Positions 13,850 to 36,947 of a stretch of 64,000 bases of DNA are shown here, piece after piece (position 1 is the first letter of the stretch; the number at the start of each line of letters is the position of its first letter). A program made the position numbers and the translations under genes. The DNA comes from Devosia marina (GTDB taxonomy: Bacteria; Pseudomonadota; Alphaproteobacteria; Rhizobiales; Devosiaceae). The stretch covers positions 434,001 to 498,000 of the forward strand of contig NZ_WQRF01000002.1 in NCBI RefSeq assembly GCF_009758415.1. The letters run 5' to 3'. The notes under the pieces are model-generated. The model was not told the origin of the DNA. It was given only the letters and a program-made list of their open reading frames with translations, and made no database searches.

Positions 13850-13946
13850 TGCACAAGGCGCATGGCGCCGTTAAGGAATTGGCGTCGATTGACGCATTAG
13901 GATCAAGCCAAGTGCCCAGGATGGGCGGAAGAAGAGGCAAGAAAAG

Positions 13947-16451: not shown

Positions 16452-16468
16452 GTTAGCAATTGGCTAAC
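16452..16468. promoter_or_regulatory. Perfect inverted repeat GTTAGC-N5-GCTAAC upstream of cheD
   Basis: The 17-base site lies between the divergent CheT-like gene and cheD. Its left ten bases also occur at 10731-10740 before the cheS operon. It overlaps a TTG that could start a longer cheD, which favours the downstream ATG as the true start. A shared transcription factor is the simple reading. Confidence 0.5.
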
Positions 16469-16522
16469 GAGTTTACCTCTACCATCCGAACCAATTCGCC
16501 CGCAGAGGTAGACCAAGACGAC

Positions 16523-17113: not shown

Positions 17114-17225
17114 TTGCCGACCATTTCTTGGGCGTGTTTTGGCGCGCCAGCCGGGCTTACGAAAGTCTTACTGCCGCGCCAGGCCTTATAGATTTGATTA
17201 ACCATTATTAAGATAGGGTTCGGTC

Positions 17226-18776: not shown

Positions 18777-18810
18777 TCCGGAAGAAGTCCGGGACAAAAA
18801 GGGTGGTTGC

Positions 18811-19650
18811 ATGGAACAGGGGGAATACGCCCTCAGCGAGCGGGAATTCGCTCGTATCAAGGCACGGGTCTATTCCGTCGCCGGTATTTCGCTGAGTGAT
18901 GCCAAGCGCACGCTGGTTGTGTCCCGGCTCTCCAAGATACTGCGCGCGCTGCAATTGCCCAGCTTTGACGCTTATGTCGATTATCTGGAACGCGGCGGAT
19001 CGGCCAAGGACGGGCAGGATTTCGTCAACGCGCTGACCACCAATCTGACGCGGTTCTATCGCGAAGATCACCATTTCGACCATTTGCGGGACTATGTGGG
19101 CACGCTGATCGCCGAACGGCCTCGTGGCACGCGGCTGCGCATCTGGTCGGCCGGCTGCTCGACAGGCCAGGAGCCCTATACGATCGGTATGGATTTGCTT
19201 GCTGCCTTTCCAGAGCTCAAGCGCTGGGACTTCAAGATCCTGGCCACCGATATCGACACCGCCGTGCTGGCCAAGGCGGCCGGTGGGGTCTATCCGGAAA
19301 CAGAGCTCAATGGTCTTTCCGCGGAACGGGCGCGTCCGTTCGAGCGCGCGACAGGGTCGATCCGTATACCCGCCAATGTGCGCGAGCTGGTCTCGTTCAA
19401 GCCGCTCAACCTGATTGGCCCCTGGCCGATGAAGGGGCCGTTCGACGCCATCTTCTGCCGCAATGTGGCGATCTATTTCGACAAGCCGACGCAGGGCGAG
19501 ATGTTTGGACGCTTTTCCAAGATGCTCGCGCCCGAAGGCTTCCTCTACATCGGCCACTCGGAAAACCTGGGTTCAGGTGGCGAGGGCTTCCGGCTTGTGG
19601 GCAAGACGATCTACCAGTCGCGTGAAAAACTGAACAAGCGAGCTGCATGA
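18811..19650 (+). CDS. cheR: Chemotaxis protein methyltransferase CheR
   Basis: CheR transfers methyl groups from SAM to receptor glutamates. The protein has 279 residues. The N-terminal helical domain covers about residues 1-85, TTNLTRFYRE marks its junction, and the SAM-binding motif is RIWSAGCSTGQEPYTIGM. The small beta-subdomain that binds receptor pentapeptides in enterics lies at about 155-190. FDAIFCRNVAIYFD and YIGHSENL complete the family set. It overlaps cheB by four bases. Confidence 0.96.
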   Translation: MEQGEYALSEREFARIKARVYSVAGISLSDAKRTLVVSRLSKILRALQLPSFDAYVDYLERGGSAKDGQDFVNALTTNLTRFYREDHHFDHLRDYVGTLIAERPRGTRLRIWSAGCSTGQEPYTIGMDLLAAFPELKRWDFKILATDIDTAVLAKAAGGVYPETELNGLSAERARPFERATGSIRIPANVRELVSFKPLNLIGPWPMKGPFDAIFCRNVAIYFDKPTQGEMFGRFSKMLAPEGFLYIGHSENLGSGGEGFRLVGKTIYQSREKLNKRAA

Positions 19651-20708
19651 TGAGCATCAAGGTCCTGGTCGTCGACGATTCGGCGCTTATCCGCGAAGTT
19701 CTGGCCCGCATGCTGACGCGGGACGGCGATATCGATGTGGTGGGCACCGCCACCGATCCCATTGACGCACGCGAGAAGATCAAGACCCTCGATCCTGATG
19801 TGGTGACACTCGATATCGAAATGCCCAACATGAACGGGCTGGCCTTCCTTGAAAGACTGATGCGCCTGCGGCCCACGCCGGTGGTGATGGTGTCGACACT
19901 CACCAAGAAGGGGGCGAGCGAAACGCTATTGGCCCTCGAGCTGGGCGCCGTGGACTTTGTCGCCAAGCCCAGTGCCGAGTTTGCCGGCGGGCTCGATGCC
20001 TTCGGTGTCGGTCTGCGCGACAAGATCCGCGCTGCGGCGAAATCGGATGTACGTGGCCGTTCGGCCAGCAGGGCCGAGGTACCCAAGACCGGCAAGATGC
20101 CGCTCAAGACGGCCGCTGCGCCCGACGGCGCGCTGATCGCCATTGGCGCTTCGACCGGCGGGGTGGAAGCGATCCGCGCCGTGTTGTCAGAGTTGCCCGC
20201 CGATTGTCCGCCGGTGGTCATCGCCCAGCACATGCCGGCCGGCTTTACCGGTCGCTTTGCCGCGCGGCTGGATGAATTGTGCGCGCTGACCGTGCAGGAA
20301 GCCGAGGACCGCATGGCGCTCAAGCCGGGTCACGCCTATGTGGCCCGCGGCGACTATCATTTGCGGGTCGAGCGCTCTTCGGGGCAGCTTAAGTGCCGCC
20401 TGGGTCAGGATGGGCTGGAAAGCGGGCATCGGCCCAGCGTTGATGTTCTCTTCGAATCGGTGGCCAAGACCGTCGGGCCGATGGCCGTCGGCGCCATTCT
20501 GACCGGCATGGGCCGGGATGGCGCCAGAGGTCTCAAGCTCATGCGCGATGCGGGCGCCTATACCGTGGGGCAGAGCCAGGCCTCGGCGCTGGTCTATGGC
20601 ATGCCGCGCGTGGCCTTCGAGGAAGGCGCGGTGGTCGAGCAGGCGCCGGTGGAACAGATCGCAGCCAAGCTGGCCAATGCGCTGGTCAAGCTCAAATCCG
20701 CCGCGTGA
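19647..20708 (+). CDS. cheB: Chemotaxis response regulator / protein-glutamate methylesterase CheB
   Basis: CheB removes methyl groups from receptors when phosphorylated by CheA. It has 353 residues. The receiver domain has D56 in VTLDIEMP and ends near residue 130. After a short linker the esterase domain carries the catalytic triad S169 (IGASTGG), H195 (AQHMP) and D291 (GMGRDGA). The start at 19647 overlaps the cheR stop; an ATG one codon later is equally possible. Confidence 0.97.
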   Translation: MMSIKVLVVDDSALIREVLARMLTRDGDIDVVGTATDPIDAREKIKTLDPDVVTLDIEMPNMNGLAFLERLMRLRPTPVVMVSTLTKKGASETLLALELGAVDFVAKPSAEFAGGLDAFGVGLRDKIRAAAKSDVRGRSASRAEVPKTGKMPLKTAAAPDGALIAIGASTGGVEAIRAVLSELPADCPPVVIAQHMPAGFTGRFAARLDELCALTVQEAEDRMALKPGHAYVARGDYHLRVERSSGQLKCRLGQDGLESGHRPSVDVLFESVAKTVGPMAVGAILTGMGRDGARGLKLMRDAGAYTVGQSQASALVYGMPRVAFEEGAVVEQAPVEQIAAKLANALVKLKSAA

Positions 20709-20820
20709 ATGGGCAAGCGAGAATGCCAATGGCGCAGTTGAGAGATTTGTAACGCTTGACCCATAGAGTTTGAGTCAAGTGCGGCCCGAAGGCCGCAGGC
20801 GCGTAGAGGTAAGAACAACC

Positions 20821-21210
20821 ATGCCAAAAGCGAGCGCTGTGAGCGTCCTGATCGTTGATGACCAGCAGTCCATGCGCGGGATCTGTAAGTACATCCTGAC
20901 CCAGCTCGGGTTCAAGGACATCATCGAAGCCAAGTCCGGGCGCGATGCCCTGGGCAAGCTTGAAAAGTCCAATGTCGATCTGATCATTTCCGACTGGAAC
21001 ATGGAAGATATTGACGGGCTGACCCTGCTCAAGGTGATCCGCAAGCATCCCCGGACACAAGCCATGCCCTTCATCATGGCCACGGGCCGCTCGGACAAGG
21101 AACAGGTCAAGGAAGCTATTTCCTTTGGTGTGAACAATTACATCATCAAGCCGTTTGATGCTTCGACCATGAAGAAGCGGATCGAGGCGGTGATCGGCGC
21201 GCTGACCTGA
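20821..21210 (+). CDS. cheY2: Chemotaxis response regulator CheY2 (probable motor-acting CheY)
   Basis: This is a 129-residue receiver. Acidic residues are D13-D14, the phospho-acceptor is D58 (IISDWNMED), T88 is in FIMATGR, and Y107 and K110 (NNYIIKPF) are the aromatic switch and lysine. The presence of a classical Tyr switch makes it a better candidate than CheY1 for the motor-binding regulator. The ATG at 20821 follows GAGGTAAG; an upstream GTG at 20770 is less likely. It is followed by a strong terminator, which ends the core che cluster. Confidence 0.94.
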   Translation: MPKASAVSVLIVDDQQSMRGICKYILTQLGFKDIIEAKSGRDALGKLEKSNVDLIISDWNMEDIDGLTLLKVIRKHPRTQAMPFIMATGRSDKEQVKEAISFGVNNYIIKPFDASTMKKRIEAVIGALT

Positions 21211-21242
21211 TCGGTACTTAGCGGTCGCCCCACAAAAGTTCA

Positions 21243-21274
21243 AACGCCTCCGCTGTCGCAGCCGGGGCGTTTTT
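21243..21274 (+). terminator. Rho-independent terminator after cheY2
   Basis: AACGCCTC pairs with GGGGCGTT (one wobble pair) around a 13-base loop, and TTTTT follows. It separates the core che cluster from the receptor array. Confidence 0.8.
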
Positions 21275-21468
21275 CATTGAGAAAACACTGTTCTCACAGG
21301 TGTTTGCCTAATAAATGGGCGATCCGCACTTGTCCGTAAGAAGTGATTAAGCCTGTGCCGGTATCGTTTCCATGACAGCGCGTTCGCGTTGCGTGACTGC
21401 CTGCGCATGGGCCGCCCGGCCTGTTGCTGCCTAGGGGGAGCAGTCGCCGTTGGGGAGCAAACACAAAA

Positions 21469-23997
21469 ATGAAATTCATTCCGCAGCTCAGGATTGCCCA
21501 GAAATTGCCGTTGGCCCTGGTGGGGTCGGCGCTGATTGTCAGCGCTGGCGTGGGCATTGCGAGCTATCTGATCGGCCTGGGAACCGTACAGGAACAGCGC
21601 GACCAGTCCATGCAGGCCTCGCTCAATACAGCCAGCGCGCTGGTCAGCGACTATTATTCCAGTGCCGAGGTCGATCTGCGGCTCTTCGTGCAGCGCTCCG
21701 ATACCGTGACGGCCATGCAGAACATGACCCGCTCGCTTGACGAGTTGCGCATGGGGCTCAAGGAGCGGGCTGCGGCGCAGTTGCAGAAGGCCTATGTGAC
21801 CGACAGCCCCAATCCCGAGGACCGCGCGGCGGTCGACAGTGTCGGGATCATGGGTGCCAGCTACGATCCGGTGCACAAGCGCTATCATCCCGGTTTCCGC
21901 ACGCTCATGCTCGAGCGCGGCTATACCGATGTGCTGATGGTTTCGGCCGCTGGTGACGTGGTCTATTCGGTGGCCAAGAACACCGATTTCGCCACCAATG
22001 TCGTCAATGACGGAGATGCTGCCGCCTCGGGTCTGGGGCAGGCCTTCGCTGCGGCCAAGGATCTGGGCCCGGGCGAGGCGGCCTTTGTGGACTTTTCGCT
22101 CTACAGCCCCACCGCGACGCCGGAAAGCTTCATGGCCATGCCCGTCTACAGCAATGATGAGAGCACCGGCGTCATGGTGCTGGCGATCTCGCCGCAGGTG
22201 ATGAGCACCGCCGTTTCCGGCCTCTCGGGGCTGGGCCGGAGTGGCGAAGTGGTGGTGGTGGGCCAGGATGGCCTGTTGCGCTCTGAATCCCCGCGCACTG
22301 AAGAGGCCGATGTGCTGGCCACCAGCCTCACTTCCGATGTCATTGCCGGTGCCTTTGCCGGCGAAACCGGGGAAGGCCTGAGCACCGATTATCGCGGCGC
22401 GCCGATGGTGGTGCGGGCCCAGCCGGTGAGTGTGCATGACGTCACCTGGGCCATTGCTGCCGTGCAGCCGGAAGACGAGGCCTATGCCGCCGTTGTGCAG
22501 ATGCGCAATATGACCCTGATTGTGGGCGGGATTCTCCTCGCCATTGCAGCCGTCATCGGCTTTCTCTTTGCCCGCTCGATCAGCAAGCCGATTTCGCGCC
22601 TGACCGATACCATGGACGCGCTGGCCGGCGGGAATCTCGAGGTCGAGGTCAAGGGCGCGCGCCGGGCCGACGAGATCGGCGCCATGGCCCGGGCCGTCGA
22701 GGTGTTCCGTGAGAACGCCCTCAAGGTCAATGAGATGACCGAGGCCGAAGCCGCCCGGATCGTGGCCAGCCAGGCCGAGCGCGCCGCCATGATGCAGGAT
22801 TTGCAGCGGGCTTTTGGCCAGGTGGTCGATGCCGCCATTGCCGGGGATTTCTCGCGGCGCGTGACGGCCGAGTTCCCCGATGACGAACTCAATACGCTGG
22901 CCCGCTCGGTCAATGGTCTGGTCGAGACGGTCGACCGGGGCGTCAGCGAAACCGGCTCGGTGCTATCGGCGCTGGCCAATACCGATCTCACCCAGCGCAT
23001 GCAGGGTGATTATCAGGGAGCGTTCGCCCGCCTCAAGGCAGATACCAATGCGGTGGCCGACAAGCTCACCGATATTGTGGGTCAGTTGCGCGACACCTCG
23101 CGCACGCTCAAGACCGCTACGGGTGAGATTCTCTCGGGCGCCAATGATCTCTCGGAACGCACCACCAAGCAGGCGGCGACAATCGAGGAAACCTCTGCGG
23201 CCATGGAGCAGCTTGCAGCCACGGTATTGAGCAATGCCGAACGCGCCAAGCAGGCTTCGGGCGTTGCCACCGGGGTGACCCACACCGCAGAAGAAGGCGG
23301 GCAGGTCATGGGTCAAGCAACGGCGGCCATGGAGCGCATCACGCAGTCGTCGGCCAAGATTTCCAACATTATCGGGCTGATTGACGACATCGCGTTCCAG
23401 ACCAATCTCTTGGCGCTCAATGCCTCGGTGGAAGCGGCGCGCGCCGGCGAAGCCGGCAAGGGCTTTGCCGTGGTCGCCGTCGAAGTGCGGCGCCTCGCCC
23501 AGAGTGCGGCGCAGGCCTCAAGCGACGTCAAGGCGCTGATCGAGCAGAGCGCCGATGAGGTCAAGGGCGGCTCCAAGCTGGTTGCCGACGCCGCCGGTCG
23601 GCTGGAGGAAATCCTTGCCTCGGCCCGTTCCTCGAGCGAAATGATGAACAATATCGCGCGGGAAAGTCGCGAACAGGCCGCCTCCATTGAGGAGGTCAAT
23701 ACAGCCGTCCGCACCATGGACGAGATGACCCAGCACAATGCGGCTTTGGTCGAGGAAATGAACGCTTCGATCGAGCAGACCGAAGCCCAGGCAACCCAGC
23801 TGGACACAATCGTCGACATCTTTGCCCTGGAACAGCGCAATGCGGCGCCGGTCATCTCGGCTCCGAAAGAGGCGAAAGGCCCGGTCCAGTCCATCGCCCA
23901 GGGAGCGCGTGGCTTGCAAGCCAAGCTCAGCACCGCCGCGAAGTCCTATTTGAGCAGGGGCAACGCGGCCGTCGATGCCGACTGGAGCGAGTTCTAA
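21469..23997 (+). CDS. Methyl-accepting chemotaxis protein, large periplasmic (double Cache-like) sensor
   Basis: This is an 842-residue transmembrane receptor. TM1 is at about 12-34, a periplasmic sensor of about 310 residues follows (with [25 protein letters not shown], as in dCache modules), and TM2 is at about 345-368. A HAMP ([21 protein letters not shown]) and a second HAMP-like unit come next, then the signalling hairpin with [20 protein letters not shown]. The C-terminus is DWSEF, an xWxxF pentapeptide. The ATG at 21469 follows GGGGAG. A TTAAGCC motif lies 122 bases upstream. It is the first of six tandem receptors, and its ligand is unknown. Confidence 0.94.
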
Positions 23998-24010
23998 CCC
24001 GGCTCTGACG

Positions 24011-24035
24011 AAGGGCGCTTGGCAGCGCCCTTTTT
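24011..24035 (+). terminator. Rho-independent terminator after the first array receptor
   Basis: AAGGGCGCT pairs perfectly with AGCGCCCTT around a TGGC loop and is followed by more T residues. Each array gene may therefore be its own transcription unit. Confidence 0.85.
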
Positions 24036-24141
24036 CAGGCTCGAATAACTACCATACAAGATCAACCTGTCGTTAAGCCTCCAGGGGATAGCGTGTGGTC
24101 GCCGAGGAAGAGGACCTCGGCTCCGGGTTGGGAGGGGAACC

Positions 24142-26205
24142 ATGAAATTTCAGACGGGCTGGCGCCATATGCGCATGACCACAGCCATTGCCGCTTTGCT
24201 GCTGACCAGCATCATGGTGACCATCGTCGCTTATAGCGCGAGCACCTATCTCAGCCTGCGCGGGCAGGCCGTGGGGCAGGCGATTGCCCAGCAGGATGCC
24301 GATCTCAAGACCGCAGCAACGGTTTATGAAAAGCGCCTGTCCGGATCGGTGCTGACTTGGTCGGAGGAGGATGGCAGCATTGTCAGCTTCACCACCTATT
24401 CCATTCCCAATTTCTACGACACCGGCGCGGTGGATTCGGTTACCCGGGTCACTGGCGGCGAAACCATCGTGTTCAGCCTCGACGAGGCCGGGCAGTTCAT
24501 CGCCAAGTCGACCAGTTTCGAGGTCGAAGGCGAGCGCATCACCGATTTCGTGCTCGACCCGGCCAGCCCGGCCGCCACCACCCTGGCATCGGGCGAAGCC
24601 TATTATGGAGAGATGACGGTAGAAGGCACGACCTATAATGCGGCGGCCTATCCGGTCTACAAGCTTGATGGCACCTTGCTCGGCGCCTTCTGGGTGGGCA
24701 AGGACGTGGCACTGGCCGACGCTGCTGCCAATGCAGCCTTGCCGGGACTGGCCGCGATGGCAGGCGTGTTGCTGGTGGTCATGGGCGTGATCGGACTTCT
24801 GGCCTCGCGCCTGTTGACCCGCCCCATCCCCAGGCTGGCACAAACCATGGATGCCATTGCCGCAGGCGATTTCGCGGTCGAAGTCCCCTTTGTCGAGCGC
24901 GGCAATGAGATCGGCGCCATGGCGCGCGCCGTGGAAGTGTTCCGCGAGAACGGCCAGCGGGTCAGCCAGATGACCGAGGCCGAAGCGGCACGGATCGTGG
25001 CCGACCAGGAAGACCGCCAGCGCATGATGGGCGAATTGCAGGACGCGTTCGGCGTGGTGGTCGATGCGGCTGCAGCCGGCGATTTTGGCCGCCGCGTCAA
25101 TGTGGAATTCCCCGATCCCGAGCTCAATGCGCTCTCGAGTAGCGTCAACAATCTGGTCGCCACCTTCGAGCGCGGCGTCAGCGAAGTCGGCTCGGTGCTG
25201 GGTGCCCTGGCCAATACCGATCTCACCCGCCGCATGGAGGGGGACTATGAGGGCGCACTGGCGCAGCTCAAATCTGACACCAATGCGGTGGCCGAAAAGC
25301 TGAGCGATGTGGTGGGGCAATTGCGCGCCACTTCGGGCACGCTCAAGACCGCGACCTGCGAAATCCTCTCGGGCGCCAATGACCTCTCGGAACGCACCAC
25401 CAAGCAGGCGGCGACCATTGAGGAAACCTCGGCGGCCATGGAGCAGTTGGCCACGACCGTGCTCAGCAATGCGGAACGGGCGCAGGATGCCAGCCAGCGC
25501 TCCAGCGTGGTCACGCGCGCGGCCGAAGAGGGTGGCCAGGTGATGGCCGATGCCACCGGCGCCATGGAAAAGATCACCTGTTCTTCGGGCAAGATCTCCA
25601 ACATTATCGGCATGATCGACGATATCGCCTTCCAGACCAATCTCTTGGCGCTCAATGCCTCGGTGGAGGCGGCGCGCGCCGGCGAGGCGGGCAAGGGCTT
25701 TGCCGTGGTCGCCGTCGAAGTGCGGCGCCTCGCCCAGAGCGCGGCGCAGGCCTCGAGCGAGGTCAAGGTGCTGATCGAGCAGAGCGCCGATGAGGTCAAG
25801 GGCGGTTCGCGCCTGGTGGCCGATGCCGCCACCAAGCTCGACGCCATTCTCGAGGCGGCCCGTGCGTCGAACGAGTTGATGCACTCCATCGCTTCAGAAA
25901 GCCGAGAGCAAGCCTCCGCGATTGAGGAGGTCAATACGGCGGTGCGCACCATGGACGAGATGACCCAGCACAATGCGGCGCTGGTCGAAGAAATGAATGC
26001 GGCGATCGAGCAGACCGAGGCCCAGGCAACCGAACTCGACAGAATCGTCGATGTTTTTCATGTCGGCGACGCAAGCTCGCCCGTCACGCCTCCGGCCAGA
26101 ACGGAGGCCGAAGCGCCCGGCGCCCGGGCGCGGACCAACACCGCTCGAAACGCCTATCTCAGCCAGGGCAATGCGGCGCTCGACTTGTCCTGGAGCGAGT
26201 TCTAG
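24142..26205 (+). CDS. Methyl-accepting chemotaxis protein with single Cache-like sensor, unusual cysteines
   Basis: This is a 687-residue receptor. TM1 is at about 15-37 and a periplasmic domain of about 165 residues ends in GAFWVGKDV, the strand pattern of sCache modules. TM2 (about 206-228), HAMP and a second HAMP-like unit follow. The hairpin tip [20 protein letters not shown] is nearly identical in DNA to that of the previous gene. It ends in SWSEF. Two cysteines replace residues conserved in its paralogues (LKTATCEIL and KITCSSGK). GGGAGGGG lies before the ATG, and TTAAGCC is 69 bases upstream. Confidence 0.94.
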
Positions 26206-26227
26206 GCCAATCGGCACGGACAAACAG

Positions 26228-26264
26228 GCCGCATTGAGGTTCCGATGAACTCCCATGCGGCCTT
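26228..26264 (+). terminator. Weak hairpin after the second array receptor
   Basis: AGGCCGCAT pairs perfectly with ATGCGGCCT across a 19-20 base loop, without a clear U-run. It may help transcript ending or stability. Confidence 0.35.
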
Positions 26265-26462
26265 GTGCAACGCCGCACGCCTTCACATGAACGCAAAAAA
26301 GCGGCGATCTGCACATTTTTTGTCCGGCAAGTGGCGCTGAAATCGATTCCGGAAAGATCCGTACAGTTTTCGGTAAATAGTTTCTCATAGCGTGTCCCGC
26401 CAGTGGGCCGTTCCAGAAGTGATTCCAGAAGGAAGGCCGGGTCCGAACGGGGGAGAACCGCT

Positions 26463-28538
26463 ATGAAACAAGTTGCGCGCTTTTTTGGAAATGTGCGCAT
26501 GACCACCACCATCATGGTTCTGGTCATGCTGTCCATCATTGGCTCGATCGCGGCGGTTTCGACCGCGATCTATTTGAACCTGCATGCGCAGTCCATGGCG
26601 GACAGCGAAGTGCAACAGGAAACCAATCTGGGCGTGGCCGCCACCATTCTTGAGCGCCGCATTTCCGGTTCCGTGCTGACCTGGAACGAAGAAGGCGCCA
26701 TCGCCTCCTTCCAGAGCTGGGCCATCCCTCCCTTTTACGACACCGAAGTGATCGACTCGGTGACCCGTGTCACCAAGCAGGACGCGGCCATCTATGTCGC
26801 CGACTCAGCAACCGGTGACATGGTGGCCAAGACGACGAGCCTGATGGCCGATGCGCAGACCCGCGCCGTGGGCGGAACGTTGGCGGCCGATAGCGATGTC
26901 GTCACCCGGCTCAATGCCGGCGAAATGGTGCTGGGCCGGGTGAATATTGACGGGGTCGAATATTACTCTGCGCTGCAGCCGATCCAGAAGACCAATGGCG
27001 AAGTGATGGGTGCGATCTTTGTGGGCACGCCCATGGCCAGGGTGGAAGCGGCAGCCAATGCCGTGCTGGGACTGATCGGTGTGGTTGGCGGTGCCGCCGT
27101 GGTCGCGTTCGGTGCCATTGGCTTTGTCACTTCGCGCCTGATTACCCGGCCGATCCCCAAGCTGGCCGCGACCATGGATGTGGTGGCCCAGGGCAATTAC
27201 GAGGTCGATGTGCCCTATACCGACAAGGGCAACGAAGTGGGGGCCATGGCCCGCGCGGTGGAAGTGTTCCGCGAGAACGGCCTGCGCGTCAGCCAGATGA
27301 CCGAGGCCGAGGCCGCGCGTATCGTGGCGGACGAAGAAAAGCGCCGTCAGATGATGACCGAATTGCAGGCCGCGTTCGGTGAAGTGGTCGATGCTGCAGT
27401 CGCGGGCGACTTCACCAAGCGCGTGCATGCCGAGTTCCCTGATGCCGAGCTGAACAGCCTGGCGGGAAGTGTCAACAATCTGGTCGAGACCTTCGATCGC
27501 AGCGTGGAAGAAGTGGGCGAGGTGCTTGGCGCCATGGCCAATACCGACCTGACCCGCCGCATGACTGGAGAATATGAGGGGGCCTTCGCCAAGCTCAAAT
27601 CCGACATCAATGCCGTGGGCGAGAAGCTGACCGAAGTGGTCATGCAGCTGCGCCGCACCTCGGGATCGCTCAAATCGGCGACCGGCGAAATTCTTTCGGG
27701 CGCCAATGACCTGTCCGAACGCACCACGAAGCAGGCCGCGACTATCGAGGAAACCTCGGCTGCCATGGAGCAGCTTGCCTCAACCGTGCTGAGCAATGCC
27801 GAGCGGGCCAAGCAGGCCAGCGCCAGCGCTTCACGGGTGACCCGCACCGCTGAAGAAGGCGGGCAGGTGATGGATGCAGCCAATGAGGCCATGGAGCGGA
27901 TCACCGCCTCCTCGGCCAAGATCTCCAACATCATCGGCATGATCGACGATATCGCTTTCCAGACCAATCTTCTGGCGCTCAACGCTTCGGTGGAGGCAGC
28001 GCGCGCCGGCGATGCCGGCAAGGGCTTTGCCGTGGTTGCGGTGGAAGTGCGGCGCCTGGCGCAGAGCGCCGCCAGCGCATCTTCCGATGTGAAGGCGCTG
28101 ATCGAGCAGTCGAGCGGCGAGGTGACGACCGGCTCCAAGCTGGTGGGTGAAGCCGCCGGCAAGCTGGCCAGCATGCTCGAAGCGATCCGCGAAAACACCC
28201 AGTCGCTTGAAGCCATTGCCCGGGACAGCGCCGAACAGGCCACCTCGATCGAGGAAGTGACCGCGGCCGTGCGGACCATGGACGAGATGACCCAGCACAA
28301 TGCGGCCCTGGTGGAAGAGACCAATGCGGCAATCGAGCAGACCGAGGCCCAGGCGACCGAGCTCGACCGGATCGTGGACATCTTCGCCATCGACCAGAGC
28401 GGCATCGACTTGATGAGTGCCCCGGCAACCGCTCCGCGACAGGACCGTCCGGCGCCGGCCAGGGCGACCCAGAAGGCCGCCAAGGTCTATCTCAGCCAGG
28501 GCAATGCGGCCATTGCGGCCGATTGGGACGAATTTTAA
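26463..28538 (+). CDS. Methyl-accepting chemotaxis protein with single Cache-like sensor
   Basis: This is a 691-residue receptor. TM1 is at about 16-40, and the periplasmic domain of about 160 residues ends in GAIFVGTPM as in sCache modules. TM2 (about 203-227), HAMP ([18 protein letters not shown]) and a second HAMP-like unit follow, then the signalling hairpin with the conserved tip. The C-terminus is DWDEF. The ATG at 26463 has GGGGGAG upstream; a longer frame from 26403 is rejected. It is most similar to its two flanking receptors, which suggests local duplication. Confidence 0.94.
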   Translation: MKQVARFFGNVRMTTTIMVLVMLSIIGSIAAVSTAIYLNLHAQSMADSEVQQETNLGVAATILERRISGSVLTWNEEGAIASFQSWAIPPFYDTEVIDSVTRVTKQDAAIYVADSATGDMVAKTTSLMADAQTRAVGGTLAADSDVVTRLNAGEMVLGRVNIDGVEYYSALQPIQKTNGEVMGAIFVGTPMARVEAAANAVLGLIGVVGGAAVVAFGAIGFVTSRLITRPIPKLAATMDVVAQGNYEVDVPYTDKGNEVGAMARAVEVFRENGLRVSQMTEAEAARIVADEEKRRQMMTELQAAFGEVVDAAVAGDFTKRVHAEFPDAELNSLAGSVNNLVETFDRSVEEVGEVLGAMANTDLTRRMTGEYEGAFAKLKSDINAVGEKLTEVVMQLRRTSGSLKSATGEILSGANDLSERTTKQAATIEETSAAMEQLASTVLSNAERAKQASASASRVTRTAEEGGQVMDAANEAMERITASSAKISNIIGMIDDIAFQTNLLALNASVEAARAGDAGKGFAVVAVEVRRLAQSAASASSDVKALIEQSSGEVTTGSKLVGEAAGKLASMLEAIRENTQSLEAIARDSAEQATSIEEVTAAVRTMDEMTQHNAALVEETNAAIEQTEAQATELDRIVDIFAIDQSGIDLMSAPATAPRQDRPAPARATQKAAKVYLSQGNAAIAADWDEF

Positions 28539-28562
28539 ACCACTCGCATTGAACAATAATAA

Positions 28563-28585
28563 GCGGCCCGCCCAGTGCGGGCCGC
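28563..28585. terminator. GC-rich hairpin after the third array receptor
   Basis: GCGGCCCGC pairs perfectly with its complement around a CCAGT loop. No strong U-run follows on the plus strand, but the next bases are AT-rich. A transcript end here is likely but not certain. Confidence 0.55.
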
Positions 28586-28695
28586 AAACATTTGTTATCC
28601 TCAATAATCGGTTAAGCCCATTCTCCTAGGATATTTCCCAATAGAGGCGCCGGTTCCGCGGGGGAGCCGGACCCATATCCATAAGGGCCTGGCAC

Positions 28696-30789
28696 ATGTG
28701 CAAAACAATCAAGCGCTTCCTGGGCAATATCAAGATGACCACCGCCGTTGCAGCATTGGTCATCTGCACGGTCATCGTTTCGGTGAGTTGTGTGTCCGTT
28801 GGCATTTATCTGAGCCTGACCTCATCGATGTCTGACTCGGCGATGACGCAACAGGTCGCCAATTTGAAGGCTGCGGCGACGATCCTCGAATCGAACTTGC
28901 CGGGAACCGAGGTGAACTGGGCCGAGGACGGCGATCTTGCGTCTGTGCAGGTCTGGAGCATGCCGCGGCGTTTCATCGATCATGCTCTGGTGGATTCCAT
29001 CGCCAGGGTGACGGGAGAGCAGGCGACTATCTTTGGGTGGGACGAAGCTGCGCAGGATTTCGTGCGCATGACGACCACGATCGAGGACGAAGCCGGCGAG
29101 CGGGTCGTGGGAACACCGCTCGGGCGTGGTGGGGCGGTGTTTGCCAAGATAATGAACAATGAGGCTTTCTTTGGCGAAGCCAATATCTTGGGCGAAGCCT
29201 ATTTCACGGCCTATTATCCAGTAGTGGACAAGGACGGCAACGTTACTGGCATCTTGTTCGTGGGTAGTGGCAAGGCAGCATTCGAAGAGACGATCTACGA
29301 GGCGCTCAATGTTCTTCTGGTTGTCGGCCTGATTGCGCTGGTCGGGCTGGGCGCGGTGGGCTATGCGTTGTCGCGGTTGATGATGTCGCCCATCCCGAAG
29401 CTGGCCGGCACGATGGATGTTGTGGCCCAGGGCAATTACGATATCGACGTGCCTTTTACCGATAAGGGTAATGAAGTGGGCGCCATGGCGCGCGCCGTCG
29501 AGGTCTTCCGCGAAAATGGTCTCAAGGTCAGCCAGATGACCGATGAGGAACGCGCAGCGGCCGAGCGCCGGCGTATCGAGCGTACCGACATGATGGTCGC
29601 CCTGCAGGCAGCTTTCGGTGAAGTGGTGGATGCTGCGATCGCAGGCGACTTCACCAAGCGCGTGCATGCGCAATTTCCTGATGCCGAGCTCAATGGCCTG
29701 GCCGGCAGCGTCAACAGCCTGGTGGAAACAGTCGAACGCGGTCTGAGTGAAACTGGCCAGGTGCTTGCGGGACTGGCCGAGGCCGATCTTACTCAGCGCA
29801 TGGAAGGGGAGTATCAGGGCGCCTTTGCCAAGCTCAAGGCCGATACCAATGCGGTGGCCGAGAAGCTCAGTGACGTGATCGGCGAGGTGCGCGTCACGTC
29901 GCGCGCCCTCAAGGTCGCCACCGGCGAAATCCTTTCGGGCGCAAACGATCTCTCGGAACGCACCACAAAGCAGGCAGCGACCATCGAGGAAACGTCCGCA
30001 GCCATGGAACAGCTCGCTGGCACCGTGGCCGAGAATGCCCGGATGGCAGAGGACGCCAATCAGTCGGCAACGACTGTTTCCGCCGATGCCGCGCGCAATG
30101 GCGAAGTCATGGACAAGGCCAATGCAGCGATGGAGCGGATCACTCAGTCCTCGGCCAAGATTTCCAACATTATCGGCATGATCGACGACATTGCCTTCCA
30201 GACCAATCTGCTGGCGCTCAACGCCTCGGTGGAAGCGGCACGCGCCGGCGAGGCGGGCAAGGGCTTTGCCGTGGTGGCCGTTGAAGTGCGCCGCCTGGCC
30301 CAGAGCGCAGCGGAAGCCTCCTCGGAGGTCAAGGCGTTGATCGAGGCCAGTGCCAATGAGGTCAAATCCGGATCGGATCTGGTCTCCAGCGCGGCCACGC
30401 AACTGCGCGACATGCTTGGCGCGGTCAACAAAAATGCGGGGCTGATGGAGGCCATTGCCAAGGCCAGCCAGACGCAGGCGTCGGCGATCGACGAGGTTAG
30501 CGTTGCCGTTCGGACGCTGGACGAGATGACCCAGCACAATGCAGCTCTGGTCGAACAGACCAATGCCGCCATTGAGCAGACCGAGGCCCAGGCCAGTGAA
30601 CTCGACCGGATCGTAGCGGTGTTCAGGACAGATGCTGCCGAGGACGGGGTCAGCCTGGCGCCAATTGCGCACAGGACCGCACGAGCCGCCGCGCCGCGGC
30701 CGAATCCGGCGAGGAAGGTGCAGCAGGCCGCCAGCGCCTATCTCAGCCAGGGCAATGCCGCCATCTCGGCTGACTGGGACGAGTTCTAG
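28696..30789 (+). CDS. Methyl-accepting chemotaxis protein with single Cache-like sensor
   Basis: This is a 697-residue receptor. TM1 is at about 16-38 with a Cys near its start, the periplasmic domain of about 160 residues ends in GILFVGSGK, and TM2 is at about 206-226. HAMP and a second HAMP-like unit precede the conserved signalling hairpin. In the region after HAMP it has [17 protein letters not shown] where its paralogues have TEAEAARIV. The C-terminus is DWDEF. TTAAGCC lies 84 bases upstream of the ATG. Confidence 0.94.
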
Positions 30790-31097
30790 ACAAAGCCGAC
30801 AAACGACATGATCTCGGCCGGTGTCCAGTAATGGATGCCGGCCTTCTTGCTTCGAGGAAAAAATGTTCCAATTATTTCGCGCCGTCGTGGCCTGGTCTGG
30901 TGTATTTATTGGTATATTTCCGTATTAAATCTCTTCAGATCACCAGACTCTGCGCGGTGTGTAGTACAACTTACTCCAAAATTTCAATATGGGGTGATCC
31001 AGTACAGATCAACAAATGATCTTGTTAACTTTGTGGTCGCAGCCTTGAAGTCGAGGCCACCCCGTGGGGTTCGGGTGGCGGGGGTTGAGAGGCAGGC
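30790..31097. other. AT-rich intergenic region between fourth and fifth array receptors
   Basis: These 308 bases have no supportable gene. The part at about 30850-31030 is much more AT-rich than the rest of the window, with TATTTATTGGTATATTTCCG near 30903. GTTAAC occurs at about 31022. It probably holds the promoter of the tandem-PAS receptor. The base composition could also mark a past insertion. Confidence 0.45.
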
Positions 31098-32840
31098 ATG
31101 GTTGAGATCTCCTTTGGCAGCAGCCATCGTGACAATGCGGCAAAGGTTGCGGCTATCTCGCGCAGTCAGGCGGTGATCGAATTCGCGCTCGATGGCACGA
31201 TCATCACGGCCAACGAAAATTTCCTCAGCGCTATGGGCTATGGACTGGATGAGGTCGTGGGCCGGCACCATGCCATGTTCTGCGATCCCGACTATGCCAA
31301 GAGCGCGGACTACCAGAGTTTCTGGGCCGATCTGGCCAAGGGGCAGTTCAAGTCGGCGGCCTTTCAGCGTTTTGCCAAAGGTGGCCGGGAAATCTGGATC
31401 CAGGCCAGCTACAATCCGGTGTTCGATCATGCGGGCAGACCGGTCAAGGTCATCAAGTTCGCCACCGACATTACCGAGCAGACGCAGCGATCGGCCGATT
31501 TGGCGGCGCAGATCGAAGCCATTTCCCGGGTACAGGCCGTGATTGCCTTCAAGCTCGATGGCACCATCATTGAGGCAAACGAGAATTTCCTGACCACGGT
31601 TGGCTACCGGCTCGAAGAGATCGTGGGGCAGCATCACGCCATGTTCTGCGACCCGGATTATGCCCGCTCCAGCGAATATGCCCAGTTCTGGGAACGGCTG
31701 CGGGCCGGCCAGTATGAGGCCGCCGAGTTCCAGCGCTTCGGCAAGAATGGCAAGGAAATTTGGATCCAGGCGAGCTATAATCCGGTGCTCGACGCCGCCG
31801 GGCGGGTGGTCAAGGTGGTCAAGTTCGCCACCGATATCACCGAGCGCAAGCGGGCCGAAGGGATCATCGCCGAACTGACCTCGAGCCTGGCGCGCATGGC
31901 CAAGGGAGACCTTGGCTGCCGCATAGAGCACCAGTTCACGGGCCAGTACGAGCAACTGCGCCTGGCCTTCAATTCCTCGCTCGAGCAGCTTGAGGATATT
32001 GTCTCGGGGCTGCGCCACGCCTCCGGCGCGTTGCGCACGGCCACCGCAGAGATCCTGTCCGGGGCCAATGATCTCTCGAGCCGGACCACCAAGCAGGCCG
32101 CCACAATCGAGGAAACCTCGGCGGCGGTGGAGCAGTTGTCGAGCGCGGTGGCGGACAATGCCAAGCGCGCGTCCATGGCCAGCGAGAAGGCGCGCGCGGT
32201 GTCGCAAAACGCCACCGAGGGCGGGGAGGTGATGCATGACGCCACGCAGGCCATGACCGCCATCGAGACCTCGTCGGGCAAGATCTCCAATATCATCGGC
32301 ATGATCGACGACATCGCCTTTCAGACCAATCTCCTGGCCCTCAACGCTTCGGTTGAAGCAGCCCGGGCCGGTGACGCCGGCAAGGGCTTTGCGGTGGTTG
32401 CGGTGGAAGTGCGGCGCCTGGCGCAGAGCGCGGCCAGCGCCTCCTCGGACGTCAAGGCGCTGATTGAGGCCAGCGCAGGGGAGGTGCGTAGTGGGGCACA
32501 ACTGGTCAACCGTGCCGCCGAGCGCCTGCAGGACATTCTTGTCGGAGCGGAGGAAAGCGCAACCCTGATCGACGCCATTGCCACCGCCAACCGCGACCAG
32601 TCCGGTGCGCTCGAAGAAGTGGCTGTGGCCGTCCGGCAGATGGATGAGATGACCCAGCACAATGCAGCTCTGGTGGAACAGACCAATGCCGCCATCGAGC
32701 AGACCGAGGCCCAGGCCGGTGAATTGGACCGGATTGTGGCCGTGTTCCGCAGCGGGCAGCCTGCAGCGATGCCCGAGCCGGCGCGCCCAGCGGCGCCGCG
32801 CCTGCTCAAGGTGGCGGGCGGAGACTGGATGGAGGCCTAG
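31098..32840 (+). CDS. Soluble methyl-accepting chemotaxis protein with two tandem PAS domains
   Basis: This is a 580-residue cytoplasmic receptor without membrane segments. Two PAS domains (about residues 14-125 and 136-250) are near-duplicates; both have DGTII-ANENFL, the [11 protein letters not shown] motif and [16 protein letters not shown]-like segment ([14 protein letters not shown]) leads to the usual signalling hairpin with [20 protein letters not shown]. The C-terminus is DWMEA, which lacks the final Phe of the pentapeptide. PAS-type receptors of this kind often sense oxygen or redox through FAD or haem, but the cofactor is unknown. Confidence 0.92.
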
Positions 32841-32979
32841 CGAAAGGCCCTGCGCATGCCACGCGATAACCGATCCTTTACCATGAATGGCTAGGTTTTT
32901 CGTGACAATGATCCAGATCAAGATTTGGGAATCTCGATTGGCACAGAACGTCACAGACCCCAATCTGGAAACCCTTGCC

Positions 32980-34590
32980 ATGACCTCCAATACCGCCGAC
33001 CTTCTCCAGTCCCGTCTCGACTTTATCGGTCTTGATGAAGATGCGCGGGGCAGCGTCGCCCGCGCCCAGCCGCTGATCGAGGCTCATCTTGAACCGGCGC
33101 TGACCCGGTTTTACGCCAAGATCGCCGAGGTGCCGGCCGTAGCCCGCTTCTTTGATGGCAAGCCACAGATGGATCGGGCCAAGTCCAAGCAGCTCGGCCA
33201 TTGGTCGGCCATTGCGACGGGGCAGTTGGATCAGGCCTATATGGAGGCCAGCAGCAAGGTGGGCCTCCGCCATGCCAAGATCGGGCTGGAGCCGCGCTGG
33301 CATATCGGTGGCTATGGCGTGATCATGGAAACGCTGGTGCGCGGACTGGTGCACGACACCATGGCGGCAGCGCTCGAGCCGGAAAAAAGCCGTTTCGGCC
33401 GTTCCGTGCCGCGCAAGGCCGAGGCCGTGCTGGCTGATGCTGATGCCATGGCCGACATGCTGGTGGCGGTACTGAAATCCATGCTGCTCGATGTCGACAT
33501 CGGCGTTTCTGCCTATTTCGACAAGCTGACCGCTGATGCCCGAGAGGCCGATGACGCGGCGCGCGCAAAAATCGACAAGGCCGTCGCCGCGACCGGGGCG
33601 GTGCTCCGCGATGTGGCCCAGGGCAATCTCACCAGCCGGGTGACCGAGGCCCTCGACCCCGAATTCGACCAGATCAAGCAGGACACCAATGCGGTGGCCG
33701 AACGGCTGACCGAGATCGTCGGGCAATTGCAGCAGACTTCCCGCTCGCTCAAGACAGCGACGGGAGAAATTCTGTCCGGCGCCAATGATCTGGCCGACCG
33801 CACCACGCGGCAGGCGGCGACCATTGAGCAGACCTCCGCGTCGGTCGAGCAGCTGTCCACGGCCGTGGTGGAAAACGCCAAGCGGGCAGCAACCGCCAGC
33901 GACACGGCCCGTCAATTGTCGCGCAGCGCGACTGAGGGTGGCGCAGTGATGGGGGAGGCCAATCAAGCCATGAGCGCCATCGAAACCTCGTCGGGCAAGA
34001 TCTCCAACATTATCGGCATGATCGACGACATCGCCTTCCAGACCAATCTGCTGGCCCTCAACGCCTCGGTGGAAGCGGCCCGGGCTGGCGAGGCCGGCAA
34101 GGGCTTTGCCGTGGTCGCTGTGGAAGTGCGCCGCCTGGCGCAGAGCGCCGCCCAGGCCTCCAGCGACGTCAAGCAGTTGATCGATGCCAGCGCCGGCGAG
34201 GTGCGAAACGGTACCCAATTGGTGGCGCGCGCCGCCGAGACGCTGCTCGACATTCAGACCCGCGCCGAGGAAAGCGCGGGGCTGATCGACACCATTGCCC
34301 GGGCCAATAGCGAGCAGTCTCAGGCGCTTGAAGAAGTCACGGTGGCCGTGCGGACCATGGACGAGATGACCCAGCACAATGCGGCGTTGGTGGAAGAAAC
34401 CAATGCAGCCATCGAACAGACCGAGGCGCAGGCCAGCGAGCTCGACCGGATCGTGGATGTTTTTCGGGTCGAGGACACCGCAAAACCGTTGAAACGGCCG
34501 CAGGCGCCGTCCAAGCCTGCGCCCGCAATGCGCCCGGCACCCCGCAGCGCCGGTAATACAGCGCTGGCGACCGACTGGACGCAGTTCTAG
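32980..34590 (+). CDS. Globin-coupled chemotaxis receptor (HemAT-like protoglobin MCP)
   Basis: This is a 536-residue soluble oxygen sensor. The N-terminal protoglobin domain covers about residues 8-165, and H98 in VGLRHAKIGLEPRW is the expected proximal haem ligand. A linker and one HAMP-like unit lead to the signalling hairpin with the conserved tip. The C-terminus is DWTQF, which fits the xWxxF pentapeptide. The ATG at 32980 has GGAAAC upstream; the longer frame from 32887 adds 31 residues with no globin character and is rejected. It is the last full receptor in the array. Confidence 0.94.
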   Translation: MTSNTADLLQSRLDFIGLDEDARGSVARAQPLIEAHLEPALTRFYAKIAEVPAVARFFDGKPQMDRAKSKQLGHWSAIATGQLDQAYMEASSKVGLRHAKIGLEPRWHIGGYGVIMETLVRGLVHDTMAAALEPEKSRFGRSVPRKAEAVLADADAMADMLVAVLKSMLLDVDIGVSAYFDKLTADAREADDAARAKIDKAVAATGAVLRDVAQGNLTSRVTEALDPEFDQIKQDTNAVAERLTEIVGQLQQTSRSLKTATGEILSGANDLADRTTRQAATIEQTSASVEQLSTAVVENAKRAATASDTARQLSRSATEGGAVMGEANQAMSAIETSSGKISNIIGMIDDIAFQTNLLALNASVEAARAGEAGKGFAVVAVEVRRLAQSAAQASSDVKQLIDASAGEVRNGTQLVARAAETLLDIQTRAEESAGLIDTIARANSEQSQALEEVTVAVRTMDEMTQHNAALVEETNAAIEQTEAQASELDRIVDVFRVEDTAKPLKRPQAPSKPAPAMRPAPRSAGNTALATDWTQF

Positions 34591-34704: not shown

Positions 34705-34998
34705 ATGCAGATTCTTGAACTCGTCACCTTTCGCCTCGCGATCCCCGATCGTCAGGCCTTCCTCGCTGCCAACGATACTGTAAGCAGCTGGGCCCAGCGG
34801 CAGCCCGGTTTTGTCAGCCGAACTTTGAGCGAAGGCGAGGACGGGCAATGGATCGACATGGTGGTATGGGCCAGCGACGTAGATGCAAGAACCGCGGCAG
34901 CTGAGATGAGCCGGATCATGCAGGACTTTGACGCCATGATGATGATTGACCCTGGCAGCGTCGTCATGCGCCACAGCGCTGTTCGTCTGGCCGCCTGA
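34705..34998 (+). CDS. Small ABM-like (dimeric alpha/beta barrel) protein
   Basis: This is a 97-residue protein with the layout of antibiotic-biosynthesis-monooxygenase-like domains: an N-terminal strand (ILELVTFRLAI), a helix with AFLAANDTV, QPGFVSRTLSE and a strand WIDMVVWAS. Such proteins can be haem-handling, monooxygenase or unknown. GGAG lies before the ATG at 34705. Its stop overlaps the next start by one base, so the two are coupled. The pair sits between the two globin-coupled genes. Confidence 0.7.
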   Translation: MQILELVTFRLAIPDRQAFLAANDTVSSWAQRQPGFVSRTLSEGEDGQWIDMVVWASDVDARTAAAEMSRIMQDFDAMMMIDPGSVVMRHSAVRLAA

Positions 34999-35357
34999 TG
35001 ATCAGCCAGAGCGAGCTTGACGCCATTCTGGCCCAGCAACCGGAATCTGTAAGACAGCTGTGCCGCCAAGTGGTCCGGCTGCTGGCGAACGTTGCGGGTC
35101 TGACCGGAAGCGTCAAGCTCGGCTGGCGGTCAGTCAATTTCCGGCATGAAGTCGCCGGACTGGTTTGTGCCGTCTTTCCCCATGATGATCGGGTGGCGAT
35201 CTACTTCGAGAATGGCAGACAGCTCGAGGATCGTGATGGTCTGCTTGAGGGCAGCCATTTGAAGAAGGGCCGTTTTCTGCGGCTTTATCCCGGCGAGCCG
35301 GTGCCTGAAACGGCAATTGTGATGTTGGTGGCCGAAGCCGTAGCACTCAAGCTCTAG
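34998..35357 (+). CDS. DUF1801-type small protein
   Basis: This is a 119-residue protein that resembles DUF1801 (YdhG-like) proteins: GSVKLGWRSVNFRHEVAGLVCAVFPHDDRVAIYFENG then a GSHLKKGRFLRL stretch. The fold is related to the FeS-free frataxin-like/YjbR type. Its function is unknown. It is translationally coupled to the ABM-like gene. Confidence 0.75.
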   Translation: MISQSELDAILAQQPESVRQLCRQVVRLLANVAGLTGSVKLGWRSVNFRHEVAGLVCAVFPHDDRVAIYFENGRQLEDRDGLLEGSHLKKGRFLRLYPGEPVPETAIVMLVAEAVALKL

Positions 35358-35456
35358 CAGTATAAGTAGATCCCGATAGGGATTTGTTAACCACGATGTT
35401 TACCCCGCCGGGGTCTGATCGGCGCTGACGAACAGCGCGGCCAGACGAGGGCGGGG

Positions 35457-36947
35457 ATGCAGGACACATTTGAGCAAAGGCTTGCATTTGTCGGGCTCGA
35501 CAAGGATGTGGAGGCCCGGCTGGCGCCAATTGCGGATCTGGTCGAGCGCCATGTCGAAGTCGCCGTTGAGCGCTTCACCGCGCAGGTGGCGACGAGCCCC
35601 AGCGCCGCGCGCTTTCTTTATGGCCGCGATCGTCTTGACAGCAATGGCGAAGGCCTGGCCGAGCACTGGCGGGCGCTGGCCGGGGGGCGGTTCGATGCGG
35701 GCTTTGCCGAAGCGTCGCGGCGCATGGGGCTGCGCCACGCCCGGATCGGGCTCGAACCGCGCTGGCATGTGGGTAGCTATGCCAGCCTTGTCGATGTCCT
35801 GGTCAAGGGTGTCATTCAGGACGGCATGGCTGCAGCGCTGCAGTCCCGGCGGGGTGCGCTGGGGCTGTTTGGCCGGTCGGACGAGGCGGGGGTCCAGCGG
35901 GTGGCCGAGGCGATTGCCGAAGGCCTAGCAACGCTTCTGGCCGGTGTGCTGCTCGACATCGATCTCAGCCTCTCGGGCTATATCGCCAAATTGCGGGAGG
36001 AAGGACTTCACAATGCCGAAGCGCAGCGCCAGCGCTTGCGCCAGGCCGTAAAGCAGGCCGGGCAGGCCCTGGAACTGGCCGCCGACGGCCAAAGGCATGA
36101 AGTTGCCGAGGCGCCGACAGACCCCGATCTGGCGCCGCTCTACGCGGGAGCCGAGCGGCTTGCCGACAAGGTGATGGCGCTTATCGCGGATCTCGAGGGG
36201 GCGAGCGCAACCATGCACCAGGTCGCTGGCAATGTGGCGACACACGCTGCAGCGCTGACCAATGCGCGGGATGAGCAAGAGCAGATGGGTGTGGCGCTGG
36301 CCGACGAACTGGCCGGGCAGGCGCCGCTCGCTGAGCAACTTTGTGCGATCCTTGATGCGGCGGCGCGCCATAACAAGGCCGTGCAGCGCAAGGCGGCGGC
36401 GCTTGCAGCAGTGCACGCGGCGCAACAGGCCGATGCCGGGGTGCTAGATGGCTTTGCCGAACAGCTCGATGCCCTGCATCTGAGCGCGCAATTGCTGGCT
36501 GCCCAGAGGGAGGACGAGGCCGTGCGTACCTTGTCTGCGGGTCTGGGCCGCCTGTCCGGCCAGTGTCGGGCGCTTCGCGTGCAGTCGGGCGGCCGGCAGG
36601 ATGAAATGACCCGCAGCGTCGCCGCCCTGCAGGCGGCGCTGGAGCGTCTGAACGGTACGGCAGCCGAGGATCCGGTGTCTATCGCTCCCGCTGCCAAGGC
36701 AGCGCGAGCGCAGCTTGCCGCTCTTGAGGCGATGGCCGCGCAAGCGCGTGGGCTCAGCGCTGCGCTGCAGGAAGATTGGGAAAAGAGCCAGACGGCGCGG
36801 GAGGGTGTGCGAGACGCTCTGCTGGCAACGGGGGCCTTTGCTGACCTGGCGGCTGCCTTTGCGCCCGATGCAACGCCAGCAGAGCAGACCGTGGCCTTCC
36901 CCGATCACGACCAGACCGCGCTGGCCGCTCACTGGCATGCAGGATAG
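35457..36947 (+). CDS. Globin-coupled protein with degenerate chemoreceptor-like coiled coil
   Basis: This is a 496-residue soluble protein. The first 160 residues are a protoglobin domain close to that of the gene 1.9 kb upstream, with the proximal His conserved as H94 in MGLRHARIGLEPRWHVGSY. The rest is an Ala/Gln-rich helical region that can be laid along a receptor signalling domain. However, the tip is replaced by LDALHLSAQLLAAQREDEA and the FQTN, EAARAG and GFAVVA blocks are missing. It ends in HWHAG instead of xWxxF. CheA coupling is therefore unlikely. GAGGGCGGGG precedes the ATG. Confidence 0.85.
   Translation: MQDTFEQRLAFVGLDKDVEARLAPIADLVERHVEVAVERFTAQVATSPSAARFLYGRDRLDSNGEGLAEHWRALAGGRFDAGFAEASRRMGLRHARIGLEPRWHVGSYASLVDVLVKGVIQDGMAAALQSRRGALGLFGRSDEAGVQRVAEAIAEGLATLLAGVLLDIDLSLSGYIAKLREEGLHNAEAQRQRLRQAVKQAGQALELAADGQRHEVAEAPTDPDLAPLYAGAERLADKVMALIADLEGASATMHQVAGNVATHAAALTNARDEQEQMGVALADELAGQAPLAEQLCAILDAAARHNKAVQRKAAALAAVHAAQQADAGVLDGFAEQLDALHLSAQLLAAQREDEAVRTLSAGLGRLSGQCRALRVQSGGRQDEMTRSVAALQAALERLNGTAAEDPVSIAPAAKAARAQLAALEAMAAQARGLSAALQEDWEKSQTAREGVRDALLATGAFADLAAAFAPDATPAEQTVAFPDHDQTALAAHWHAG

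Follow-up and report, generated by a model that had tools for sequence, protein, structure and literature searches.

A tip-less globin-coupled chemoreceptor paralogue under purifying selection in part of the genus Devosia

Chemoreceptors with a globin sensor relay its state through a helical half that ends in a signaling tip, and the locus described here raises the question of what such a protein is once that tip is gone. The window, a stretch of 64,000 nucleotides of Devosia marina (contig NZ_WQRF01000002.1), encodes one such protein, here called P1, downstream of an intact HemAT-type receptor that is the sole other protoglobin of the genome (Table 1). A first-pass annotation of the DNA had described P1 as a globin-coupled protein without the receptor tip, open over 496 residues, and both points held. 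The limits of the frame were exact, and Pfam matched Protoglobin (PF11563) over residues 3 to 178 (E = 9.5e-25), whereas MCPsignal did not match P1 even at E ≤ 1, nor any of the seven members of its family at E ≤ 0.01; NCBIfam gave zero matches to P1 at E ≤ 1. The neighboring receptor, which could also start from an ATG at 32980, matched both Protoglobin and MCPsignal. It had been placed 1.9 kb upstream, whereas the distance from its end to the P1 start codon is 866 bases.

Table 1. Features of the P1 locus, with positions in the window
Feature	Position	Strand	Basis
P1, tip-less globin-coupled chemoreceptor paralogue, 496 aa	35457..36947	+	ORF, ATG to TAG
Protoglobin domain, residues 1-178, with proximal His94 and with Thr41 in place of the distal B10 Tyr	35457..35990	+	Pfam PF11563 and residue comparison
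Conserved HAMP-like linker, residues 179-246, recognizably of the HemAT-receptor type	35991..36194	+	hhalign, omega
Apparently eroded receptor coil, residues 247-480	36195..36896	+	hhalign, AlphaFold2, omega
Conserved tail at the C terminus, residues 481-496, with DQTALAAHWHAG at its end	36897..36944	+	Column conservation
Conserved upstream element GTAGATCCCGATAGGGATTTGTTAACCACGATGTTTACC, probable promoter or operator	35366..35404	+	7/7 loci
Intact HemAT-type receptor, protoglobin and MCPsignal	32887..34590	+	Pfam, BLASTP

The P1 family comprised 7 of 75 Devosia genomes, the window genome (G000) included, and occupied one syntenic place. Matches at E ≤ 1e-10 occurred in 46 of the 75 genomes, with a P1-type protein in just 7; 20 candidates were scored per genome in most genomes. 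Identity to the window P1 was 85% in D. indica (G015), 80% in D. subaequoris (G070), 57% in G063, 51% in an uncultured Devosia (G068), and 43% in both D. sediminis (G032) and G031, and the remaining Devosia matches covering more than half of the query were 27 to 35% identical, with a few short ones at 38 to 47%. Across the 136 genomes of the wider family Devosiaceae, which count these 75 among them, zero further members were found with up to 11 candidates scored in most genomes, and the 17 proteins from other genera of the family among those retrieved were receptors. The retrieved globin proteins other than the P1 family, a subset of the matches, kept the receptor tip motif, except for one protein from G004. 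When the profile of the C-terminal half was run against 397 genomes of the order, with up to 5 candidates per genome, at least four genomes had matches, all 4 in Devosia; 24 of the 397 genomes were listed, and whether the set included G068, G032, and G031 was not evident. A scan of named genomes by this profile and by pattern returned four loci, in G070, G015, G068, and G032, and, since it recovered four of the six other known members, it was not exhaustive. Thus, no P1 member was found outside Devosia by the family, order, and named-genome scans, which were not exhaustive. A 41% match to residues 7 to 134 was present in G051 (C7:1127343-1127726), in a frame of 237 aa that is perhaps a stand-alone protoglobin.

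In all seven genomes, P1 immediately precedes an MGS-like gene (here mgsA; Pfam MGS) and an ABC-transporter ATPase gene. An intact HemAT gene precedes P1 in five of the genomes; G070 and G032 have no intact HemAT, and P1 persists there as the only protoglobin of the genome. An obligate partnership of P1 with HemAT is thus unlikely, although a recent loss of HemAT from these two genomes is conceivable and would make its absence today less telling. One of the seven members is truncated: at the D. indica locus, approximately 1 kb is absent in two pieces flanking the upstream element (L035/L046), so that two small genes are missing and P1 lacks its first 78 codons, while the rest of the frame is open and the first usual start codon stands near residue 90. 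In several Devosia genomes, a DUF1801 gene (34998-35357 in the window) is flanked by HemAT and the MGS-like gene, and in 5 of the 7 genomes with P1 it is P1 that separates the DUF1801 gene from the MGS-like gene. A tie between the two genes was rejected, as DUF1801 was present in 36 of the 75 Devosia genomes, 31 of which lack P1.

P1 descends from HemAT-type receptors. The seven P1 proteins formed one clade in the globin tree (SH-aLRT of 99), and BLASTP aligned the window P1 with its receptor neighbor at 29% identity over 537 columns. The profile of the seven C-terminal halves matched that of 68 HemAT C-terminal halves with an hhalign score of 61.6 (probability, 94%), whereas the receptor profile gave 20.4 when reversed and at most 17.8 in 30 column shuffles. 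The bulk of this signal came from the linker (residues 181 to 246; 36.3, against 12.6 reversed and 17.6 for the best of 20 shuffles), which is, by its profile, recognizably that of the receptor. The coil (residues 247 to 480) gave a much weaker signal of 24.0 (15.3 reversed; best of 20 shuffles, 15.9), and coil and tail together (247 to 496) scored 25.9 at a probability of just 3.9% (15.8 and 16.3, respectively). Two segments were at the level of noise, with scores of 12.5 for residues 300 to 400 (17.1 and 15.5) and 17.9 for residues 400 to 496 (16.8 and 16.0), and a strong claim of homology for the coil alone was therefore dropped; the coil looks like an eroded receptor coil, collinear with the original. 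By the first-pass annotation, a profile match to a known output family would have made P1 ordinary. The outcome was intermediate: no Pfam or NCBIfam family matched this half, but the ancestral receptor half did, and the collinearity of that match led us to reject a foreign output domain.

The exception from G004 is a HemAT-like protein (L009:1417-2922, minus strand) whose place beside the same MGS-like gene is firm and that is the sole protoglobin of its genome. Its tip is mutated, FQSNLLALKASVEAANSGPSGTGF, its B helix is altered, and the ALAxxW tail is missing, yet it still scores as MCPsignal, with 72 bits versus 148 for the window HemAT. It joined the P1 clade with an SH-aLRT of 96; however, both branches are long, and with the P1 family omitted from the tree the G004 row had no supported place. 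A sister relationship to the P1 family was thus rejected, and we call this protein only a possible intermediate. Two intact HemAT receptors stand in tandem before the MGS-like gene in G010 (L090) and G017 (L091), which suggests a route by which a second copy could arise.

The signaling tip has been lost from P1. Its segment LDALHLSAQLLAAQ aligned opposite a 14-residue stretch of the receptor, and for the 16 residues that follow in the receptor and include its hairpin turn, P1 had no counterpart. P1 lacks the residues conserved in receptor tips, and its members differ from one another around the turn predicted in their place. The Glu/Gln-rich stretch of the receptors likewise had no evident counterpart in an alignment judged by eye. 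The length of the coil also varies among the members: the two arms measured 109 and 108 residues in the window P1 versus 121 and 119 in the intact receptor, and 113/108, 116/102, 115/100, 117/109, and 121/113 in five other members. A symmetric shortening of both arms fits the window P1 and fails in the five other members counted. Heptad periodicity was 2.8 to 10.3 in the arms of every P1 member versus 13.2 to 16.8 in intact HemAT and, compared with 500 shuffles, was not distinct in several arms (for example, 233 and 175 of 500 in G031, 151 in the N-terminal arm of G063, and 114 in the C-terminal arm of G015).

Structure prediction was informative in part. An AlphaFold2 model from the 7 family rows was poor (pLDDT, 62.8) and usable for helix boundaries alone, and a second model, from 56 rows, reached a pLDDT of 78.5 but leans on the 49 of them that are receptor-like. 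Both placed a turn at residues 352 to 353, where the signaling tip used to be. The second model had the globin, one helix from 223 to 351, the turn, helices from 354 to 467, and a tail helix from 486 to 495, with a pLDDT of approximately 54 to 65 in the coil near the turn; residues 247 to 480 are thus predicted to form an antiparallel helical hairpin. The best Foldseek match of this model was HemAT-Bs (1or6_B; E = 6.5e-4; TMt, 0.81), the other top matches being globins of globin-coupled sensors, and a chemoreceptor core unit came tenth (E = 7.3e-3).

CheW-domain matches were present in all three genomes searched (8 in the window genome and 6 each in G070 and G032), including frames of approximately 700 to 800 aa, which is the size of CheA, and two of those in the window genome lie at 13436-14414. 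With CheA/CheW-type proteins in these genomes, a kinase exists from which P1 could be disconnected. Upstream of P1, at 16460-34590, the window holds cheD, an MCP gene, cheR, cheB, and a cheY-like gene, after which come six consecutive receptor genes, four of the cache type, one with PAS, and one HemAT. CheR had two matches in the window genome. Upstream of HemAT in G071, an MCP was matched as three overlapping pieces in different frames (L092:11112-11722, minus strand) and is apparently a decayed receptor.

The globin had been called intact, and this was true of its fold and of the proximal His94, which was kept in 7 of 7 members, but not of the distal pocket. The distal B10 tyrosine (Tyr70 of HemAT-Bs), found in 67 of 67 scorable HemAT rows (the 68th is partial, with a gap at that place), has been lost: T41 stands opposite it in the window P1, and the six members that have the region carry T, S, N, Q, A, or H, never Tyr. 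In PccGCS, mutation of the distal tyrosine abolishes stable O2 binding, and Tyr70 of HemAT-Bs is described as crucial for signal transduction (PMC12805357 and PMC13401364, respectively). Judging from these residues, P1 has probably lost stable O2 binding.

At the other end of the protein, the C-terminal tail has kept part of a receptor feature. Coil and tail together have 19 invariant columns out of 250, and A488, A490, A491, H492, and W493 are identical in all seven members; 38 of 20,000 permutations matched this clustering of five invariant columns within the six at 488 to 493. ALAAHW of P1 aligned opposite ALATDW of the receptor. A W-x-x-F/Y pentapeptide ends 47 of the 68 HemAT receptors (contig ends may cut some of the other 21) and 6 of the 12 complete receptor tails of the window genome (13 rows, one of which ends at the locus edge). 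Going by this alignment, ALAAHW is a descendant of the CheR/CheB-docking tail of receptors. The Trp is retained, and the aromatic at position 5 is replaced by G, V, or L in every member. Since CheR requires an aromatic residue at both position 2 and position 5 of the pentapeptide for binding (PMC7390727), it is doubtful that the tail still binds its ancestral partner.

Selection acted on P1 with different strengths along its length. Between G000 and G070, omega (Nei-Gojobori) was 0.09 for the globin, 0.16 for the linker, and 0.40 for the coil, and the 16 codons of the tail showed zero amino acid change among G000, G070, and G015, with a pS of 0.66 between the first two. In more distant pairs, omega was 0.23 to 0.32 for the globin and 0.43 to 0.60 for the coil, and the tail was 50 to 75% identical. 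Globin omega was 0.08 to 0.09 in pairs with G070, which has no HemAT, and 0.12 between G000 and G015 (100 codons). The neighboring HemAT was under far tighter constraint, with an omega of 0.08 to 0.14 for its C-terminal half, and was 96% identical between G000 and G015, compared with 83% for P1. Thus, globin, linker, and tail are under purifying selection. The earlier judgment that P1 is not a simple pseudogene was borne out by dN/dS among related genomes, which was nonneutral in both halves: in each of 15 tests, one per region and pair, the bootstrap upper limit of omega stayed under 1 (0.57 to 0.83 for the coil). Six of the seven copies are open over their full length, with several pairs at a dS of approximately 1 or more, and in a crude neutral simulation, run at two divergences, the coil escaped stops in 0 of 1,000 runs at either one. 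Neither stops and frameshifts nor neutral rates marked these six copies, the exception being the truncated gene of D. indica.

An upstream element is conserved as well. TTAACC-N6-TTTACC occurred once per locus upstream of P1 in 7 of 7, with TTAACC starting 70 bp before the P1 start codon in the window, and is on this evidence a probable promoter or operator. A related ATAACC-N5-TTTACC lies upstream of HemAT at 32865-32882. Of the 10 loci scanned that have an intact HemAT, 5 carried it ahead of that gene (G000, G015, G071, G045, and G127), and it was not found in the other 5. The element was rejected as a window-wide motif, since at up to 2 mismatches there were 2 sites, a number equaled by 17 of 100 shuffles, and the perfect site is single.

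The reading that we favor, at a probability of roughly 0.85, is that P1 arose from a HemAT-type receptor, lost its tip, and has been retained by selection. On this basis we propose a mechanism that, taken as a whole, falls a little short of even odds, namely, a haem sensor uncoupled from CheA with its output through the tail. A HemAT-type receptor would have been duplicated, and one copy would have come free of the chemotaxis kinase, with selection maintaining it in some Devosia lineages for a new role that does not involve CheA. P1 would be unable to couple to CheA/CheW, and its methylation sites appear to have been lost, as far as an alignment by eye can tell. Haem would still be bound through His94 and, since without the distal tyrosine O2 would not be stably held, P1 may answer to the redox state of the haem or to another ligand, such as NO, CO, or haem itself. 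P1 would work as a homodimer in which the globin dimer moves the HAMP-like linker and the shortened antiparallel coiled hairpin, and the readout would pass via the conserved ALAAHW tail to an altered partner or one different from CheR/CheB. A variant that we consider improbable makes P1 a regulator of adaptation, an oxygen-blind haem (redox/NO) sensor whose modified tail alters the availability of CheR/CheB to the whole receptor array according to the state of the haem.

Of the three roles offered by the first-pass annotation, a sensor with a new output was best supported, and the other two lost ground. One was a partnership with the intact receptor: P1 could be a dominant-negative or modulating subunit that uses its globin and linker to form heterodimers with the intact HemAT, or with some other soluble receptor, whose kinase output it would damp or tune. 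The intact HemAT just upstream in five of the seven genomes, the location of most invariant columns in globin and linker, and the hint of coexpression from the related element at half of the scanned HemAT loci fit this idea, and in E. coli a Tsr with a dominant trimer-blocking lesion spoils its partners by subunit exchange (PMC4692393). However, P1 stands alone as a protoglobin in two of the seven genomes, the globin omega of pairs with G070 is equally low, not above that of G000 and G015, and the arms of P1 are shorter than those of the receptor, so that we regard this role as unlikely. The other was an oxygen buffer. The retained globin fold and proximal His and the poorly conserved coil fit a haem or oxygen buffer or scavenger with the helical half as a mere scaffold, but a bare buffer does not need the well-conserved linker and tail, and the distal Tyr is absent in 6 of 6 members; this reading is very improbable.

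P1 might instead be a former receptor in slow decay, with a constrained globin, a drifting coil, and eventual loss of the gene. The coil omega of 0.40 to 0.60, the faster change of P1 than of the adjacent HemAT, the truncated D. indica copy, and the mutated tip at the same place in the G004 protein all point that way. Such decay is nevertheless quite unlikely, given six full-length open copies at these synonymous distances, the failure of neutral runs to keep the coil open, the tail unchanged in three close species, the low omega of the globin (0.09), and the conserved upstream element. The least probable of these accounts is that P1 has kept its coupling to CheA/CheW by means of an altered and shorter tip: the receptor tip residues are gone, the surroundings of the new turn are variable, and residues 300 to 400 lack a receptor profile match, even though the predicted hairpin turns at the former tip position and CheA/CheW-type genes, cheR, cheB, and cheD are present nearby.

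P1 shows a sensor that changed at both ends in one lineage, with the distal ligand pocket and tip lost and the linker and tail kept. If the favored reading is true, nature has here tried out how a chemoreceptor can function without its kinase-control tip. No description of a tip-less globin-coupled receptor was found among the listed titles and abstract beginnings of open-licence papers. The known outputs of other globin-coupled sensors include diguanylate cyclases, histidine kinases, STAS/RsbR, and HD-GYP domains. Like these proteins, P1 joins a globin sensor to an output half, but in P1 that half is an apparently eroded receptor half, in which Pfam and NCBIfam recognized no enzyme or STAS domain. 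The tail resembles CheR/CheB-docking pentapeptides (NWETF and the xWxxF/Y kind) in its place in the protein and in the conserved Trp after ALA, and differs from them in having His rather than mostly Asp at position 1 and in the loss of the position-5 aromatic in all seven members. With HemAT-type chemoreceptors (HemAT-Bs; Agrobacterium Atu1027, PMC10851874; and the receptor at 32887-34590), P1 shares the protoglobin with its proximal His, the HAMP-like linker, and the predicted long helical hairpin, and with the Devosia HemAT receptors also the ALAxxW pattern of the tail. Unlike all of these receptors, it has no tip, no MCPsignal match, no distal Tyr, and no final aromatic, and its arms are shorter.
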